Shown here piece after piece: positions 677 to 20,558 of a DNA stretch of 35,007 nucleotides. Origin of the DNA: Alphaproteobacteria bacterium (lineage in GTDB: Bacteria; Pseudomonadota; Alphaproteobacteria; Rs-D84); assembly GCA_017520675.1 (NCBI GenBank), contig JAFXFG010000013.1, positions 1 to 35,007 of the forward strand, read 5' to 3'. Position numbers and translations under genes: made by a program. Position 1 is the stretch's first letter. Every line of letters starts with the position of its first letter. The notes under the pieces were generated by a model, which saw nothing but the letters and a program-made list of their open reading frames with translations, was not told where the DNA came from and searched no databases.

Positions 677-1126
677 ATGGCACGCAAGGAATTTGTTCGT
701 TTGTTGGAATCTAATATCTGGACTTTTGACAGATTGGCCGACAAAATCCGCATGGAACGCAGCGAAATCACAGGTTATCCGCGACAATTAACCTATATCT
801 TGGTGCGCCTGCATCAGGGTGGCGCAGCACGATTGAAGGATATCGCAAGACGCGAACATGTGTCCGCACCAAATTTATGTGCTGCCTTTCGAAAACTGGA
901 ACAAGATGGTTATGTAGTCAGAACAATTGATGAAAACGACCGCAGAAACACTTGGTATTGCGTGTCGCCATCAGGGACAGAATTAGCGCTGCATGCGATG
1001 AACTTGTTCAGAATGGGGGTTGAAAAAATGTTCGCTGGGATTTCACAGGACGATGAAAAACGACTGACAGATGCATTGCGTACTATGAAAGAAGTTCTTA
1101 ATAATATGGAGTTGGATAATGAATAA
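677..1126 (+). CDS. MarR-family transcriptional regulator
   Basis: A 149-residue protein of the size usual for MarR regulators. It has an N-terminal dimerisation helix and a winged helix-turn-helix at about residues 35-95. The recognition-helix part reads ARREHVSAPNLCAAFRKLEQ, followed by the wing D-G-Y-V-V-R-T-I-D-E-N-D-R-R-N-T, where the D..DRR pattern is typical of the family. A C-terminal helix completes the dimer interface. AGGAG lies 6 bases before the ATG. The downstream tolC-like gene begins inside its last codons (8-bp overlap), so the regulator leads an efflux operon and very probably controls it. MarR proteins generally repress until a small ligand binds; the ligand here is unknown. 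Confidence 0.88.
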   Translation: MARKEFVRLLESNIWTFDRLADKIRMERSEITGYPRQLTYILVRLHQGGAARLKDIARREHVSAPNLCAAFRKLEQDGYVVRTIDENDRRNTWYCVSPSGTELALHAMNLFRMGVEKMFAGISQDDEKRLTDALRTMKEVLNNMELDNE

Positions 1127-2450
1127 AAAATATGTTGTGTCTTTGTTTGGCGCACTGTGTATTGGATTGTTCTGCGCGCCTGTTGATGCACTGGACTTGT
1201 CCTTGAAAGATGCAGTTGAAAAAATTTCTGCGGAATCAAATGATTTGAAAAAAGCAGATGCTAACCTTAAAAAGGCTGAGGCCTCGTTAGATTCTGCAAA
1301 CGCAAACCGTTGGTTTAAATTAGACGGAACAGTTTCTTATATGAGTATGGTTAATGTCGAAAAGCCTTTTAGAAACAACTCTATGAATTTACCACCAGAA
1401 TTAGGGGGTATCTTGGCAGATGCGTTTGATATGAATGTTGCTGACATCGAAATCCCAGATAATATCTTTCAAGCAGGCCTTTCGTTGACACAGCCCATCT
1501 ATACTTTTGGAAAAATTGGTAATGCAGTTAAGTCTGTTAAATCTGCAATAAAAATGTCTGAGTCAGCCAAGGAATTAACCAGACGCGAAGTCGTTTATGC
1601 GGCAGCAAACTTGTACTGGACAGCAAAAATGACAGACGAAATTGTAAAATTATCTGAGCGCGATTTGAAAAATGCACGAAATGCAAAAAAAAGCCTGACA
1701 GCAGCAGGACGCGCACATCGCAGTAATTTGCTAAAAATCGAATCTGATATTGCAACCAAGGAAATCAATGTTTCTGATGCTAAGTTCAATCGCGATACTG
1801 CGCACAGAATGCTGAAAATTATGGCGGGCATTGATATTAACGAAGAACTTAACCTGACCGATAATTTTCCAAATGAATTCGGGGCGATTGATGCAAAAAA
1901 ATTGCAAAGCACACCAGAATGGGATATCTTGGACCAGCAGGTAAAAATGTATGAAGATTTGGCACGTTCTAAGCAGGCAAACGCATATCCTACACTGGCT
2001 GCGACCGCGTCTTATAGTTATATGTCAATGGCAGGTGATGTAGGCCATATGTTCGATAAAAAGGGTAGTCAATCTGCATACTGGGGCGTTGCGTTACAAG
2101 TTCCAATCTTTAACGGCGGATTAAACAAGGCAAACGCAACTGTCGAGGCAATGAATGCAATTGCCGCACGCGAAGATTTAGACAAAGCAAAAAAATTAAC
2201 CACTGAAAAATACGAAAACGCAATTACACAATATAATCGTCTGCGTGGAAATTTATCAACCCTGTCCAAGGCACGCGATTTGGCAGCACAAACATATACT
2301 CTGTCGCAAAATCGATTTGCATCCGGACAAACATCCGCTGTTGAATTGGCAGATGTTTCCGCAGGACTATATCAACTGGATTTAGCCTTGTTGAATACTA
2401 AATACAATATTCTAATGTCGGCAGAATCTATTAAAAAGTTAGGTGAATAA
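1119..2450 (+). CDS. TolC-family outer-membrane efflux channel
   Basis: A 443-residue protein with a signal peptide (M-N-K-K-Y-V-V-S-L-F-G-A-L-C-I-G-L-F-C-A, likely cleaved after about V-D-A at residue 25). Two outer-membrane-efflux-protein halves follow, each with long Ala/Lys/Glu/Asn-rich helices (about residues 35-65, 150-240, 340-440). Both halves contain the short beta strands of the barrel, for example the F-Q-A-G-L-S-L-T-Q-P-I-Y-T-F-G-K type motif near 120-135 and Y-W-G-V-A-L-Q-V-P-I-F-N-G-G near 320. The 'LTQPIY..G' and 'VPIFNGG' signatures are characteristic of TolC-like channels, which form trimers across the outer membrane and periplasm. ATG overlaps the marR stop region with GGAG upstream. 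The stop codon is followed at once by the adaptor gene. Confidence 0.92.
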   Translation: MNKKYVVSLFGALCIGLFCAPVDALDLSLKDAVEKISAESNDLKKADANLKKAEASLDSANANRWFKLDGTVSYMSMVNVEKPFRNNSMNLPPELGGILADAFDMNVADIEIPDNIFQAGLSLTQPIYTFGKIGNAVKSVKSAIKMSESAKELTRREVVYAAANLYWTAKMTDEIVKLSERDLKNARNAKKSLTAAGRAHRSNLLKIESDIATKEINVSDAKFNRDTAHRMLKIMAGIDINEELNLTDNFPNEFGAIDAKKLQSTPEWDILDQQVKMYEDLARSKQANAYPTLAATASYSYMSMAGDVGHMFDKKGSQSAYWGVALQVPIFNGGLNKANATVEAMNAIAAREDLDKAKKLTTEKYENAITQYNRLRGNLSTLSKARDLAAQTYTLSQNRFASGQTSAVELADVSAGLYQLDLALLNTKYNILMSAESIKKLGE

Positions 2451-2451
2451 G

Positions 2452-3051
2452 ATGGAAAAAATTGAGAAAATAATTCATTCAAAGAAATTTAAACATGGGT
2501 TTTTCGTTGCCTTTATTGTCGCAATGAGCGCATGGGCCACTTTTAGATTCGCAACAATCGCATCTGAAAATGCACGCGATGTGTATAATATTGCACGCGT
2601 TTATCAGACAGATGGCGCAACAGTTGAAACACTAATTGCAGAAATAAAATCAGGTACTTTGTATGAACCACTGTCTGTAAAAGATAATCGTGCATATGTT
2701 TCTGCATCACGTGCACAGGCACTGGAAGCAGGACAACGCGTTGGTAGTGGCACAATAAAATCTGTTTCACGCAGGCTGGATTTGAACACAGGTATGTATG
2801 TCGTTAGAACAACAGATGTTAATGACGGCTTGCAATTCGCAGAATTTACATCAGATGGTATCTTTGTACCGTTGTATGCAATCAAAAACAACCAGGTCTT
2901 TGTTGCAGAAAACGGTGTCGCAGTACCACGTAATGTCGTTGTTAAATATCAAGACTCTGAAAACGCGATGATTTCAGAAGGATTGAACCAAGGCGATGTT
3001 GTTATACTGTCAACAATAAATGCAGGCGAAAAAGTTAAATTAAAAAATTAA
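2452..3051 (+). CDS. Truncated-architecture RND membrane-fusion (periplasmic adaptor) protein
   Basis: A 199-residue protein, about half the length of ordinary RND adaptors (about 350-400). It has a membrane anchor at residues 15-37. The remainder matches only the C-terminal part of the family: a beta-barrel segment with the pattern V-G-S-G-T-I-K-S-V-S-R-R-L-D-L-N-T-G, then a membrane-proximal segment with V-P-L-Y-A-I, V-A-V-P-R-N-V-V-V and a G-L-N-Q-G-D-V-V-I closing strand. The alpha-hairpin that contacts TolC and the lipoyl half-motifs that flank it are not recognisable. The ATG at 2452 is preferred over an in-frame GTG at 2443 because AGGTGA (2441-2446) sits 5 bases before the ATG. It is coupled tightly to the tolC-like gene and precedes the pump. 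The family assignment rests on context and the C-terminal pattern. Confidence 0.75.
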   Translation: MEKIEKIIHSKKFKHGFFVAFIVAMSAWATFRFATIASENARDVYNIARVYQTDGATVETLIAEIKSGTLYEPLSVKDNRAYVSASRAQALEAGQRVGSGTIKSVSRRLDLNTGMYVVRTTDVNDGLQFAEFTSDGIFVPLYAIKNNQVFVAENGVAVPRNVVVKYQDSENAMISEGLNQGDVVILSTINAGEKVKLKN

Positions 3052-3069
3052 TCACACAAGGGGTATATC

Positions 3070-6000
3070 ATGTTAAAGTTTTTTGTACGCAGACCTATTA
3101 CTACACTGATGTTCGTTCTGGTTTGGGTTGTTTTGGGACTGGTTTCGTTCCCAAAAATGAATATCGAACGCGCACCATCCGTTGACTTTCCAATGGTTAC
3201 AGCAACTTTTGTGTATCCAGGCGCATCACCAGAAGAACTGGAATCACAGGTTATAAAACGCGCAGAAGACGCAATATCAGAGGTTTCTGAGTTAAAGTCA
3301 ATCACATCGTATGTTTTTGAAAACAGCGGTATGGTAATGGCTGAATTTAATTTAGGCGCAAATGTTAATGATAAATCAACAGAAATAAAAAATAAGTTGG
3401 ATTCTTTGCGTATGGAATTTCCAACCGATATGGAACAACCAATGGTTGAAAAATTAAACCCATTGGAAGAATCTGTGGTGGATATAGTTTTAACAGGCGC
3501 AGATGCACGCGATTTAGAAGAATATGTGGATGATGTGCTATCTACCAAAATCACCGCTGTAAAGGGTGTCGCAAGCGTGTCTGTGTTCGGTGGACGCGAA
3601 CGCGCGGTCCGTATCGCAATGAATCCAGATACAATGGCAGCAAATGGTATTACTGTTATGGATGTCGTATCCGCGTTGGGGGCACATAACTTGAATGTTC
3701 CTGGGGGAAAAATCGAAACAAGTCGCAATTCTTCAAATGTTAGATTTATCGGTGAATTCGCTTCTGTGGCAGATATAGAAAATCTGCACCTAACAACCGC
3801 AGAAGGTAATAATTTTGTCTTGTCTGATATTGCAACAATTACAGATGCGGCACGCGATGTCGAAAATGGCGCACGATACAATGGAAAGCCTGTTGTTATC
3901 GCATCTGTTGTAAAGTCATCGGATGGTAATGCAATAAAAATTTCACAGGCGCTGCATGAAAAACTGCCAGAATTCCAAGCAGATTTAACACGCAGATTCC
4001 CAGATGCACAAATGACAATTACTTCTGATTCTTCGATATCCATTTCAGATGAAACAGACAGCACAATTAATGGTATTATTTTGGGTGTTATATTGACTGT
4101 CTTGGTGTTATTGGTATTTACACGAAATTGGCGTTCAACGGTTATTGCAGGTGTCGTGATTCCTGCATCCTTGGTTGCTGGGTTCTTCTTTATGGACGGG
4201 TCTGGTTTTACGATTAATGCAATGACACTGTTGGCATATTCGTCTGCGTTGGGAACACTGGTGTCAAACGCGATTATTTTGATAGAAGCAGCATTACTGG
4301 AAATGCGTGCAGGAAAAAATCCAGAAGATGCCGCAATTGATGGAACAAAGAAAGTGGCTGTATCAGTGTTGGCAGGTGTCGGAACAAATGTCGTAGTGTT
4401 CTTGCCTTTGGCATTTATGGGCGGTATTGTCGGACAATTTATGGTGCAATTTGGATTGACTGTTGTGTACCTGACTTTGTTGTCTTTGATGTTCTCGTTC
4501 ACACTAACACCAATGATGATTGCAAAATTCTTGCGCTTGACCGGTAAAAAACAACAAGTAAAAAAGGTCGAACAGAAAAACGATAAAAGCAGTTGGTTGC
4601 GCCGCTGGTACGAATTTCAAATCGCACACCCTTGGCGCGTAATTGGACTGGTGGTGATGATATTTATCGGTTCGGTTATGTTAATGCGATTTGTAGGAAA
4701 TGAATTTTCGCCTTCGACAGATGCTAATGAAATATCAATCACAGCACGCGCACCAATGGGGGCAACATTCGATAAGTCTGAAAACATCGCAATCGAAATT
4801 GAAAAGCGTCTGGCTCAATTCCCTGAGATAAAAGCAACAACAGTTAAAATCGGCGACCAAGGACTGCAAAATATTGATGTAACAGTTGAATTGGTGGATG
4901 TTTCTGAACGCAGTATTTCTGATAAAAAATTGGCACAAAAAATATTGCCAACTTTGGCAGACATCGCAGATGTTGAAATACAAATCAAGGCAGGTGAAGC
5001 CTTGTCATCAGGCGCAACATCTGATCTGGTATTAAATGTGTTCGGTGAAAATGATGTTTTGCGCGAAGAATATGCAAATAAATTAATCGATGCAATTAAC
5101 CAAATACCAGAAGTACAATCCGCAGTGCGCGCACAACAAGTGCCACCAATGGAAACTCAATTTATCCCAGACCAAGAAAAAATGAATTTCTGGGGTGTAC
5201 AAAATTCATATGCAGGAACAACTTTGCGTACGGCACTGTTCGGTAATGACACTTATAAATACAAAGAAAATGGCGAAGAATATCCAATTATCTTGGAATT
5301 CGCAAAGCCGTTTAAAAACGCAACTTTGTTTGATAATGTTTATGTCAACTCTCAAAAGGGTATGGTACCAATGTCTGCGTTGGGCGAAGTCAAAATGGAA
5401 CGCGCAACATCTGATATTAGACGCAAGGACAAAAATAGATTAACAGAAATTGATATCAATATCGGTAAATCTACAATGGGACCTGTACAGACAAAAGTCC
5501 AATCCGTAATCAATGAAATGGAATGGGAAGCAGGATATTATGCAACATTTGGTGGTATGTCCGAAGTACAGGGTGAAAGTACACAAGAAATTGGTACAGC
5601 ATTCTTGTTGGCAACAATCTTGACCTATATGTTGTTGGCAGCCATATTGAATTCTTTGGCACACCCATTAACAATTGCAACATCAATCTTGACAAGTTTT
5701 GCGGGTGTATTTGTGCTGATGTTCTTGTCCGGCGCAACAATGAATGTTGGGGCAATGTTGGCCTTTGTTATGTTGGTCGGTTTGGTTGTGAATAATAATA
5801 TCTTGGTGTTAGAACCTGCAATCAATCGTATCAATAATGGTGAAGATGCACACAGTGCATTGTGGCATGAATTAAAAGAAAAAAAGAATATGGTTTTGAT
5901 GACTTCTATTGCGGTTATCGCAGGTATGGTGCCACAGTTGTGGTCTGCTGACGGTATGAAGGTCGCAATGGGTGCAGTTATGATTGGTGGTATGTTGGCC

Positions 6001-6087
6001 AGTTTAGTCTGGACATTCACTTTGACCCCTGCACTGTTCTTTTTAATTGAACGCGCACGCAAGTGGAAACCAGGTTCAAAAAAATAA
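3070..6087 (+). CDS. RND-family (AcrB/HAE1-like) inner-membrane transporter with atypical relay residues
   Basis: A 1005-residue protein with the classical two-fold RND layout: TM1 at about 11-28, a large periplasmic loop to about 330, TM2-6 (about 333-490), TM7 (about 522-540), a second periplasmic loop and TM8-12 (about 842-995). The family pattern is clear, including F-F-V-R-R-P-I-T-T at the start, the 'YPGASPEELE' porter motif and F-S-P-S-T-D after TM7. The essential proton-relay positions are unusual: the TM4 pair usually Asp-Asp is Ser399-Asn400, the TM10 Lys is Asn908, and the Arg of the later R-L-R-P motif aligns with Asn940. Transport substrate is unknown. The last gene of the marR-tolC-adaptor operon, followed by a strong terminator. 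The minus strand also has a 484-codon open frame across this gene, which is composition-driven. Confidence 0.93.
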   Translation: MLKFFVRRPITTLMFVLVWVVLGLVSFPKMNIERAPSVDFPMVTATFVYPGASPEELESQVIKRAEDAISEVSELKSITSYVFENSGMVMAEFNLGANVNDKSTEIKNKLDSLRMEFPTDMEQPMVEKLNPLEESVVDIVLTGADARDLEEYVDDVLSTKITAVKGVASVSVFGGRERAVRIAMNPDTMAANGITVMDVVSALGAHNLNVPGGKIETSRNSSNVRFIGEFASVADIENLHLTTAEGNNFVLSDIATITDAARDVENGARYNGKPVVIASVVKSSDGNAIKISQALHEKLPEFQADLTRRFPDAQMTITSDSSISISDETDSTINGIILGVILTVLVLLVFTRNWRSTVIAGVVIPASLVAGFFFMDGSGFTINAMTLLAYSSALGTLVSNAIILIEAALLEMRAGKNPEDAAIDGTKKVAVSVLAGVGTNVVVFLPLAFMGGIVGQFMVQFGLTVVYLTLLSLMFSFTLTPMMIAKFLRLTGKKQQVKKVEQKNDKSSWLRRWYEFQIAHPWRVIGLVVMIFIGSVMLMRFVGNEFSPSTDANEISITARAPMGATFDKSENIAIEIEKRLAQFPEIKATTVKIGDQGLQNIDVTVELVDVSERSISDKKLAQKILPTLADIADVEIQIKAGEALSSGATSDLVLNVFGENDVLREEYANKLIDAINQIPEVQSAVRAQQVPPMETQFIPDQEKMNFWGVQNSYAGTTLRTALFGNDTYKYKENGEEYPIILEFAKPFKNATLFDNVYVNSQKGMVPMSALGEVKMERATSDIRRKDKNRLTEIDINIGKSTMGPVQTKVQSVINEMEWEAGYYATFGGMSEVQGESTQEIGTAFLLATILTYMLLAAILNSLAHPLTIATSILTSFAGVFVLMFLSGATMNVGAMLAFVMLVGLVVNNNILVLEPAINRINNGEDAHSALWHELKEKKNMVLMTSIAVIAGMVPQLWSADGMKVAMGAVMIGGMLASLVWTFTLTPALFFLIERARKWKPGSKK

Positions 6088-15087: not shown

Positions 15088-15546
15088 ATGAGAGAACAAT
15101 CTGGCAGATCTTTACTAGAAGTTATTGGCGTTCTGGCAATCAGCGGTGTGATGACAGTGTCGGCACTGGGGGTGTTTAATGTTATTAGAAACAATCAAAT
15201 ACGAAGCATCGCGGATGCAGAACTGAAACAAATTGCAGAAAACACCAAGATTTTAATGGAAATGCGCGGATCTTATGATGGGGTTTCGGTTGACTATCTG
15301 ATTAAGGCAGGCGCGTTAAAATCAGACAAAGCACCAATCGGTGGTGCAGAATGGTCCGTTACACCGGCCTTTAATGGCGAAACATTTGCTATTAATCTGA
15401 TTGATTTAAGTTATGGCGAATGTGAATATTTTTCGAACTCTGTGCCAGAATGGGCAACCAAAATTACAGTAAACGGATATGAAATTGGCACAATCGATAA
15501 TTGCTTTAAAACAAAAACAAACAACATATCTTTCATAGTGAAATAA
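15088..15546 (+). CDS. Type IV prepilin-like protein
   Basis: 152 residues, the normal size of a type IV pilin. A short leader M-R-E-Q-S-G6 precedes R-S-L-L-E11-V-I-G-V-L-A-I-S-G: prepilin peptidase site with Glu at +5 and a hydrophobic helix (about 9-30). The amphipathic helix continues to about 60 (I-A-D-A-E-L-K-Q-I-A-E-N). The globular part has a C-terminal cysteine pair (C-E-Y-F near 111 and D-N-C-F near 138), a possible disulfide loop as in pilins. It resembles the PilS-type major pilins of thin pili. Located 5 bases after dnaX and directly abutting the lipoprotein gene. Confidence 0.85.
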   Translation: MREQSGRSLLEVIGVLAISGVMTVSALGVFNVIRNNQIRSIADAELKQIAENTKILMEMRGSYDGVSVDYLIKAGALKSDKAPIGGAEWSVTPAFNGETFAINLIDLSYGECEYFSNSVPEWATKITVNGYEIGTIDNCFKTKTNNISFIVK

Positions 15547-16218
15547 ATGCGTTATATACAATTAGTTGCTTTGATTTTTTTATCTGCATGTATGCCCTAC
15601 CAAAGTCCGGACAGGCAAAGATGGGGCGAATTTTTAAGTGGCGCAAGTTTTACTGATATGAACGAAATTTCACGCACCGCAAAAAGACCTGTTTTTTTGG
15701 GGGCGGGGGGAAAATCGCTGGAATCTGTCGTTGATAAGTCAGATTCTTTGGATTATGGCGACAAAACCGCCAATGATAATGCAATCGCAACTAAATATAT
15801 GATGGATTTAGAGGAAAAATTATATGACACTTTGCGAAAGCCTGGGATATCTGTTCAGCGCGCCGGCAGCGAGGTTGTTGTTGTCTTGGTGCGCGATGCA
15901 ATAATGAAAATGTCCGTTGCAGAAATATCAGAAACAGGCGATGATACCCTAAAAAAAATCACAGATTTATTAAAAGAATACCCTGCAACCTTTATAGAAA
16001 TTGCAGGTTATACAGATTCTATGCGTGATACAAATGCAGCATATGCACTGTCTATGAATATGGCACAGCGCGTTGGGGTTTATTTTGTCGAACATAAAAT
16101 TAATCCAACAAGACTGTTTATCGTCGGTCGTGGCGCAGCACGTCCAATCGCATCACAGGACAATATCGGACGCCTTACAAATCGAAGAATCGAACTGCGA
16201 ATTGCGCCTGTGCGATGA
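15547..16218 (+). CDS. OmpA-domain lipoprotein
   Basis: 223 residues starting immediately after the prepilin stop codon (no gap). A lipoprotein signal ends in the lipobox L-S-A-C with Cys15. After an uncharacterised middle part (about 20-95), the C-terminal OmpA-like peptidoglycan-binding domain (about 100-220) shows I-E-I-A-G-Y-T-D-S, the following S-M-N-M-A-Q-R-V helix, V-G-R-G-A-A-R-P-I, and N-I-G-R-L-T-N-R-R-I-E-L. The Asp and Arg that bind diaminopimelate in OmpA/Pal proteins are present. Probably anchors the outer membrane, or a pilus component, to peptidoglycan; the coupling with a prepilin gene favours a pilus-linked role, which is inference. Confidence 0.88.
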   Translation: MRYIQLVALIFLSACMPYQSPDRQRWGEFLSGASFTDMNEISRTAKRPVFLGAGGKSLESVVDKSDSLDYGDKTANDNAIATKYMMDLEEKLYDTLRKPGISVQRAGSEVVVVLVRDAIMKMSVAEISETGDDTLKKITDLLKEYPATFIEIAGYTDSMRDTNAAYALSMNMAQRVGVYFVEHKINPTRLFIVGRGAARPIASQDNIGRLTNRRIELRIAPVR

Positions 16219-19901: not shown

Positions 19902-20558
19902 CTATTGCGCTTGTTCTTCGCTGGTCAGGTCCATCTTAACCCATGTATAGGTAATTGTATCACCAACTTTTTTTGCGCTTAACACATATTGACCATCGGC
20001 AGATGTGCTGGGCAATTCCCGCGCATCTATCTTGGCATCCATCGCCGTCAGCGCCGCCCCAACCGTCGTATATTCTGTTGGCAGGTCACCGATTTTGGCA
20101 GTGTTTGCGTTGGCAAGTTCTTTTGCTTCGGTTGCAAGGCTGGAATTTGTTATTAGGCCTATATACCCATCAGGGCGATCATCGCCATATTGAATATATG
20201 GAAAGCCATAAATAATACCTTCCAATAATCCTCGTGCGCCAGTTTCTGAATTGCCGTATAGTGCAGTAATTAATTCTGCTAAACTTGTTGGGTATCTAAA
20301 TGGTTGGTTAAGATAAGGAAAAAGACGCTCAGATCCTGGAAATATAGGAAAAATCCCACTTGGCAATGTGCCGATTTTATCTGACAAATCGGTCAAGTCG
20401 CTTTGGTTTGCTTTTAAATCAAGGGCGGTGGTGGTGGCGTAACTGGTTAGTGCTTCGTCCAAGAAACTGCGCGATATCAGCGACGCATCCGCCGGCGCGC
20501 CGCCTATAACAATCCCCAATATTGCGCCAAATAACCCTGTTGTTAAAAATTTTCTCAT
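19902..20558 (-). CDS. Secreted protein with repeated IG-LP motifs, paralogue of the 19033 gene
   Basis: Not a known named family. 218 residues with a signal peptide M-R-K-F-L-T-T-G-L-F-G-A-I-L-G-I-V-I (cleavage near A-D-A|S, residue 25). Contains two copies of a K-I-G-x-L-P motif: K-I-G-T-L-P-S-G near 62-69 and K-I-G-D-L-P-T-E-Y-T-T-V-G-A-A-L near 150-165. A middle insert of about 75 residues rich in Pro, Tyr, Phe and Gly sits between them. The C-terminal module G-Q-Y-V-L-S-A-K-K-V-G-D-T-I-T-Y-T-W-V-K resembles the end of the convergent neighbour. The protein is presumably exported; its role is unknown. A GGGCGAAAGAG stretch precedes the ATG. Confidence 0.8.
   Translation of the reverse strand: MRKFLTTGLFGAILGIVIGGAPADASLISRSFLDEALTSYATTTALDLKANQSDLTDLSDKIGTLPSGIFPIFPGSERLFPYLNQPFRYPTSLAELITALYGNSETGARGLLEGIIYGFPYIQYGDDRPDGYIGLITNSSLATEAKELANANTAKIGDLPTEYTTVGAALTAMDAKIDARELPSTSADGQYVLSAKKVGDTITYTWVKMDLTSEEQAQ

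Follow-up and report, generated by a model that had tools for sequence, protein, structure and literature searches.

What becomes of an RND permease once the residues that carry protons through AcrB have been replaced? The question is raised by a gene cluster in the window, by which we mean the whole 35,007-nucleotide stretch of DNA analysed, contig 11 of a 46-contig, 1.11-Mb genome that is 95% complete. Its nearest relatives are gut alphaproteobacteria, several of them recorded as Candidatus Enterousia, which has been assigned to the order Rs-D84 (PMC12306168). The cluster comprises four genes:

677..1126, + strand, MarR-family regulator, the first gene of the cluster (Pfam MarR, 7e-13)
1119..2450, + strand, TolC-family outer-membrane channel, 443 aa (Pfam OEP, 8.6e-40)
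2443..3051, + strand, mini periplasmic adaptor, 202 aa, with an N-terminal TM helix, β-barrel and membrane-proximal domain only, lipoyl domain and α-hairpin absent (TIGR01730, AF2, Foldseek)
3070..6087, + strand, RND permease, 1005 aa, with an AcrB/MdtB-like fold and all porter and docking subdomains, lacking the Asp pair of TM4 (ORF; Pfam ACR_tran, E 3e-186)

Elsewhere in the window, a 152-aa protein (15088-15546) gives a weak match to the PilS N-terminal (type IV pilin-like) family and is followed by an OmpA-family protein (15547-16218), and a 218-aa ORF on the - strand (19902-20558) has no Pfam match.

The permease matches Pfam ACR_tran with 621.5 bits (cut-off 28), residues 1-993 covering positions 1-1020 of the 1021 in the profile. 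Its best NCBIfam model is NF033617, with a score of 584 that falls far under the 1250 cut-off, and MdtB is its nearest solved sequence. A predicted structure (AF2, mean pLDDT 69.7) aligned to MdtF, AcrD and AcrB with a VIA-align Z of about 40 over 950-972 residues (4.3-5.1 Å). As in AcrB/MdtB-type HAE-1 permeases, the full-length fold has 12 TMs, PN/PC and DN/DC, and the gene adjoins those of an adaptor and a TolC homologue. With a pLDDT of about 70 the model is too weak for side-chain geometry. Overall it lies slightly nearer to chain-C or O-state chains, as would be expected of a neutral relay, although this likeness is weak, the model being of moderate confidence.

To locate the relay positions, the permease was aligned end to end with E. 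coli AcrB (NC_000913) using MAFFT. Three sites define the result:

4264..4269, + strand, codons of S399 (4264-4266) and N400 (4267-4269), at AcrB D407-D408 in TM4 (MAFFT alignment)
5791..5793, + strand, codon of N908, at AcrB K940 in TM10 (MAFFT alignment)
5881..5883, + strand, codon of K938, at AcrB R971 in TM11 (alignment; K or R in nearly all relatives)

The first-pass annotation had proposed that the whole classical relay set was missing, and for D407, D408 and K940 the alignment agrees, placing S399, N400 and N908 where they had been read. The basic residue at 971, however, is kept as Lys: N940 (5887-5889), which had been taken for the lost R971, pairs with AcrB R973, at a site that varies among relatives (N/S/R/G), and R971 pairs with the conserved K938. 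AcrB T978 is also retained, as T945. Among the hallmarks of a proton pump, the central acid of TM4 and the Lys of TM10 are thus absent, whereas the basic residue at 971 and the Thr at 978 remain. Asn at AcrB position 940 also occurs in other RNDs of the same order that carry Asp at 407 (hereafter D-type), so it is not diagnostic alone; judged by the alignment, the window RND is distinguished from them by its missing Asp pair. A shifted alignment hiding a relay was ruled out, TM4 and TM10 being gap-free against AcrB, CusA, MdtB/C and 20-odd D-type RNDs, and no other Asp or Lys takes the place of D407, D408 or K940.

Single substitutions at these positions are disabling in AcrB, where D407N, D408N, K940A and R971A each abolish proton translocation and efflux (PMC4359379), and the bacterial RND pumps that have been studied require the central acid of TM4 (PMC8277102). 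Because three of the four sites are changed in the window RND, we consider AcrB-type proton/drug antiport by this protein very unlikely.

Could the gene be what remains of a pump that is decaying as the genome shrinks? The genome is indeed reduced and the gene is missing from some relatives, but selection has held the sequence closely. S399, N400 and N908 are identical in 81/81 Enterousia genes, with synonymous codons in use at S399 (TCA 49, TCG 23, TCT 5, TCC 4) and N400 (AAC 41, AAT 40). Between close pairs the dN/dS of the gene is 0.02-0.09 (Nei-Gojobori, own script), and TM4 and TM10 are more constrained than the rest (median 0.03, vs 0.09 outside the TMs). The gene was found in 171 of 201 Rs-D84 genomes (E below 1e-135), with an open frame in nearly all of these roughly 170. 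The permease is therefore under strong purifying selection, with no sign of relaxation, and the initial view that it has not simply decayed holds. Intact frames and dN/dS also rule out a sequencing artefact. Decay is refuted by these data for Enterousia and is hardly credible as an explanation. The gene is nevertheless dispensable, since about 11 Enterousia genomes, some of them 96-99% complete, do without it.

The same substitutions recur across the order. Over 128 aligned rows of the clade to which the window RND belongs, N stands at position 408 in 121 rows, D in 6 and S in 1; position 940 holds N in 122 rows, and position 971 holds K or R in 126. Position 407 is variable, with S, T, F, A, I and other residues. 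These relay-less RNDs form a single clade separate from the D-type RNDs (SH-aLRT 100) and are present in most Rs-D84 genomes. Elsewhere in the class, the best matches share about 27-31% identity with the window RND, and D-D and K are present in every one that was read out. The six rows with Asp at 408 constitute one nested subclade (support 99.2), with T-D at 407-408 and mostly S at 940:

L171, L173, L175, L180, L183, L185, members of the T-D subclade, in genomes G191, G199, G183, G200, G193, G201

Asn occurs in both early branches of the family and in the outlying genomes G040 and G038, so the simplest reading would be that Asp at 408 was regained once in this subclade, the order of the deepest forks not being fixed by the tree. 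Asp at 408 could be a sign of useful coupling in these proteins, or of a site at which either residue is tolerated. The exchange of D for N at 408, accompanied by no other gross change, is also what would be expected if ordinary proton antiport had continued throughout along an unrecognised path in which no central Asp takes part; given that D407N, D408N and K940A each inactivate AcrB (PMC4359379), we regard unchanged function of this kind as quite improbable. One further relay-less RND is nested in the Enterousia family and resides in a genome of another family (L182, G047:C11:26144-29134; T-S at 407-408, T at 940). Its host has an F-ATP synthase and a D-type RND of its own with a full adaptor, and the relay-less copy was probably transferred from the Enterousia family.

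If the central relay is gone, protons could still be carried by other residues. Helix-by-helix scanning of TM1-TM11, with TM12 read from the alignment, found no conserved acidic residue in the TM core across the clade; in TM12 the conserved charge is carried by K964, close to where the helix begins. Two glutamates lie at the membrane boundary:

5587..5589, + strand, codon of E840, periplasmic start of TM8 (Glu in 128/128 clade rows; mostly Ala, Tyr or Ser in ordinary RNDs)
4051..4053, + strand, codon of E328, periplasmic start of TM2 (acidic in 124/128 clade rows; mostly Ser in ordinary RNDs)

The E840 codon is GAA in 81/81 Enterousia-type genes. TM8 couples the motions of the TM and porter domains in AcrB. 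E840 and E328, which are invariant or nearly so in the clade and absent from ordinary RNDs, could act as proton carriers and would be the best candidates if any coupling persists. Their position at the periplasmic ends of the helices, rather than between TM4 and TM10, argues that they are not a direct replacement for the relay. An active pump coupled through these glutamates and K938, or to another ion, would be in keeping with the retention of K938 and with the ion gradient that other proteins of these cells imply (see below), but the two glutamates sit off the TM4-TM10 centre and the core holds no acid; such a pump strikes us as unlikely.

A relay could also be supplied by a second RND subunit, as in a hetero-oligomer resembling MdtBC, and MdtB is indeed the solved sequence closest to the window RND. 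Yet MdtB and MdtC both retain DD/K, and the window's genome contains one ACR_tran match and the complete genome G060 one AcrB homologue. With a single RND in each of these genomes there is no relay-bearing partner, which makes a shared relay most improbable.

The adaptor has been reduced as well. The 202-aa protein matches TIGR01730 (RND_mfp) at positions 199-319 of 322 only, leaving 1-198 unmatched, with a score under the model's own cut-off. Its predicted structure (AF2, pLDDT 91) shows a TM helix followed by a β-barrel and a membrane-proximal domain, with no hairpin. Foldseek returned 34 solved chains at E below 1e-3 (down to 1.5e-5), nearly all of them adaptors (AcrA, MexA, MacA, CusB and BesA). 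The predicted fold suggests that only the domains gripping the RND protein remain of the adaptor. A short adaptor of about 160-216 aa accompanies the relay-less RND in the genera examined, including the T-D subclade, and reaches 263 aa in the far outlier G038. D-type RNDs of Rs-D84 (in G043 and G050, and the resident one of G047), in contrast, are paired with adaptors of 336-389 aa and usual make-up. A close parallel is the RND system BesABC: BesA of Borrelia burgdorferi, itself among the structural matches, is an adaptor without an α-hairpin that keeps its lipoyl domain (PMC3807786), whereas the window's mini adaptor lacks that domain also.

Parts of other exporters are encoded elsewhere in the window's genome. 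A TolC homologue and a full-length, 407-aa RND-type adaptor lie by topA/dnaG (G000:C5:27310-29918; L177:7311-9919), no pump gene being recognised beside them; this orphan pair might work with the relay-less RND or with some other transporter. A second locus (G000:C25:5433-11320; L178) holds an ABC tripartite cluster with an adaptor, two ABC ATPase genes, at least one ABC-2 permease and a TolC homologue, and to judge from its gene content it is probably the cell's energised exporter.

The complete Enterousia chromosome G060 (1,001,484 bp) was surveyed with E. coli genes as queries. It contains no homologue of F-ATPase, complex I, succinate dehydrogenase, cytochrome bd or bo3, transhydrogenase or Rsx/Rnf; a weak match to atpA/atpD proved to be Rho. 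A respiratory chain is reported to be absent from these bacteria (PMC12306168). Searches for F-ATP synthase detected subunit a in 6 of 40 Rs-D84 genomes and subunit beta in 15 of 201, none of them from the Enterousia family. G040 and G038, with relay-less RNDs, likewise lack F-ATP synthase, and relay-less RNDs are confined to genomes without it, the transferred copy of G047 excepted. Tests of 11 genomes detected no V-type ATPase, the only matches being cross-matches to the F-type enzyme of G047, and a full H+-pyrophosphatase was found only in G040.

A strict link between relay state and ATP synthase is nonetheless broken by the T-D subclade (Asp, no ATP synthase found) and by G047. Genome G044 also counts against it, having a D-type RND and no atpD found in an assembly only 72% complete. 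The correlation is phylogenetically clustered and no proof of cause. Moreover, G060 keeps SecD D519, SecF D213 and R247 and the TolR Asp, and the window's own genome keeps the SecD and SecF Asp. These residues suggest that some ion gradient is probably still in use, which weakens the idea that the relay was lost because proton motive force is totally lacking, suggests that such a lack would not be the whole reason, and indicates a loss specific to this RND.

How, then, might the system work? As far as the sequences go, the window RND may well be a structurally complete trimer disconnected from the proton gradient. The wider proposal, which we offer somewhat more tentatively, is of an order-wide variant of the RND tripartite system in which a proton-uncoupled permease and a mini adaptor devoid of hairpin and lipoyl domain would form an envelope conduit of a passive or gated kind, through which lipids or metabolites are possibly exchanged, the cells being unable to make their own lipids; it would have evolved without a respiratory chain and F-ATP synthase, Asp being regained once. 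In such an assembly substrates would pass passively or through a gate, or the RND would serve to dock at the TolC homologue. A precedent for docking exists in relay-dead MtrD, which still binds its adaptor, assembles and occupies the channel (PMC3664412), so an RND without a relay can remain a docking component. The variant would have arisen in the Rs-D84 lineage, in cells without respiratory chains and, here, F-ATP synthase, where protons may be costly to spend on efflux. As to cargo, amphiphile exchange is a guess, suited to cells in which lipids, amino acids and nucleotides are reportedly not synthesised. The reduced adaptor and the sole RND speak for a device that does not depend on protons, rather than for a hetero-oligomer or a relay moved to another site. 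Against a continuous conduit weighs the adaptor itself, which lacks the parts that normally join RND to TolC.

The loss of those parts together with the relay would also fit a protein that transports nothing, its RND fold serving a structural or sensing role in the envelope as in some patched-related animal proteins. Many PTR/patched-related RND-fold proteins of C. elegans lack GxxxD/E in TM4 and/or TM10 (PMC3078328); they differ from the window RND in being eukaryotic and in having neither adaptor nor outer-membrane channel. The clustering of the window gene with a TolC homologue and an adaptor, and its complete porter and docking subdomains, speak against such a role, which we hold to be doubtful. 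For the proton-uncoupled assembly, support for the anatomy is good, and the mechanism is what we infer from it.

We conclude that the window RND is real, conserved and unusual. AcrB and MtrD relay mutants carry the same kind of change, but those laboratory proteins are transport-inactive (PMC4359379, PMC3664412), whereas the change seen here is natural, selected and present at all three positions together. In the open papers we found no report of a natural bacterial RND without the relay. Such genes will be named multidrug efflux pumps, a label to be read with caution, as the sequence evidence speaks against proton-driven efflux. The family amounts to a natural experiment in which the relay has been removed, strong selection has preserved the protein in well over a hundred species, and the adaptor has been trimmed in step. 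It may show which tasks an RND trimer can perform when uncoupled from protons, and how a TolC-type channel can be engaged when no adaptor hairpin is available.
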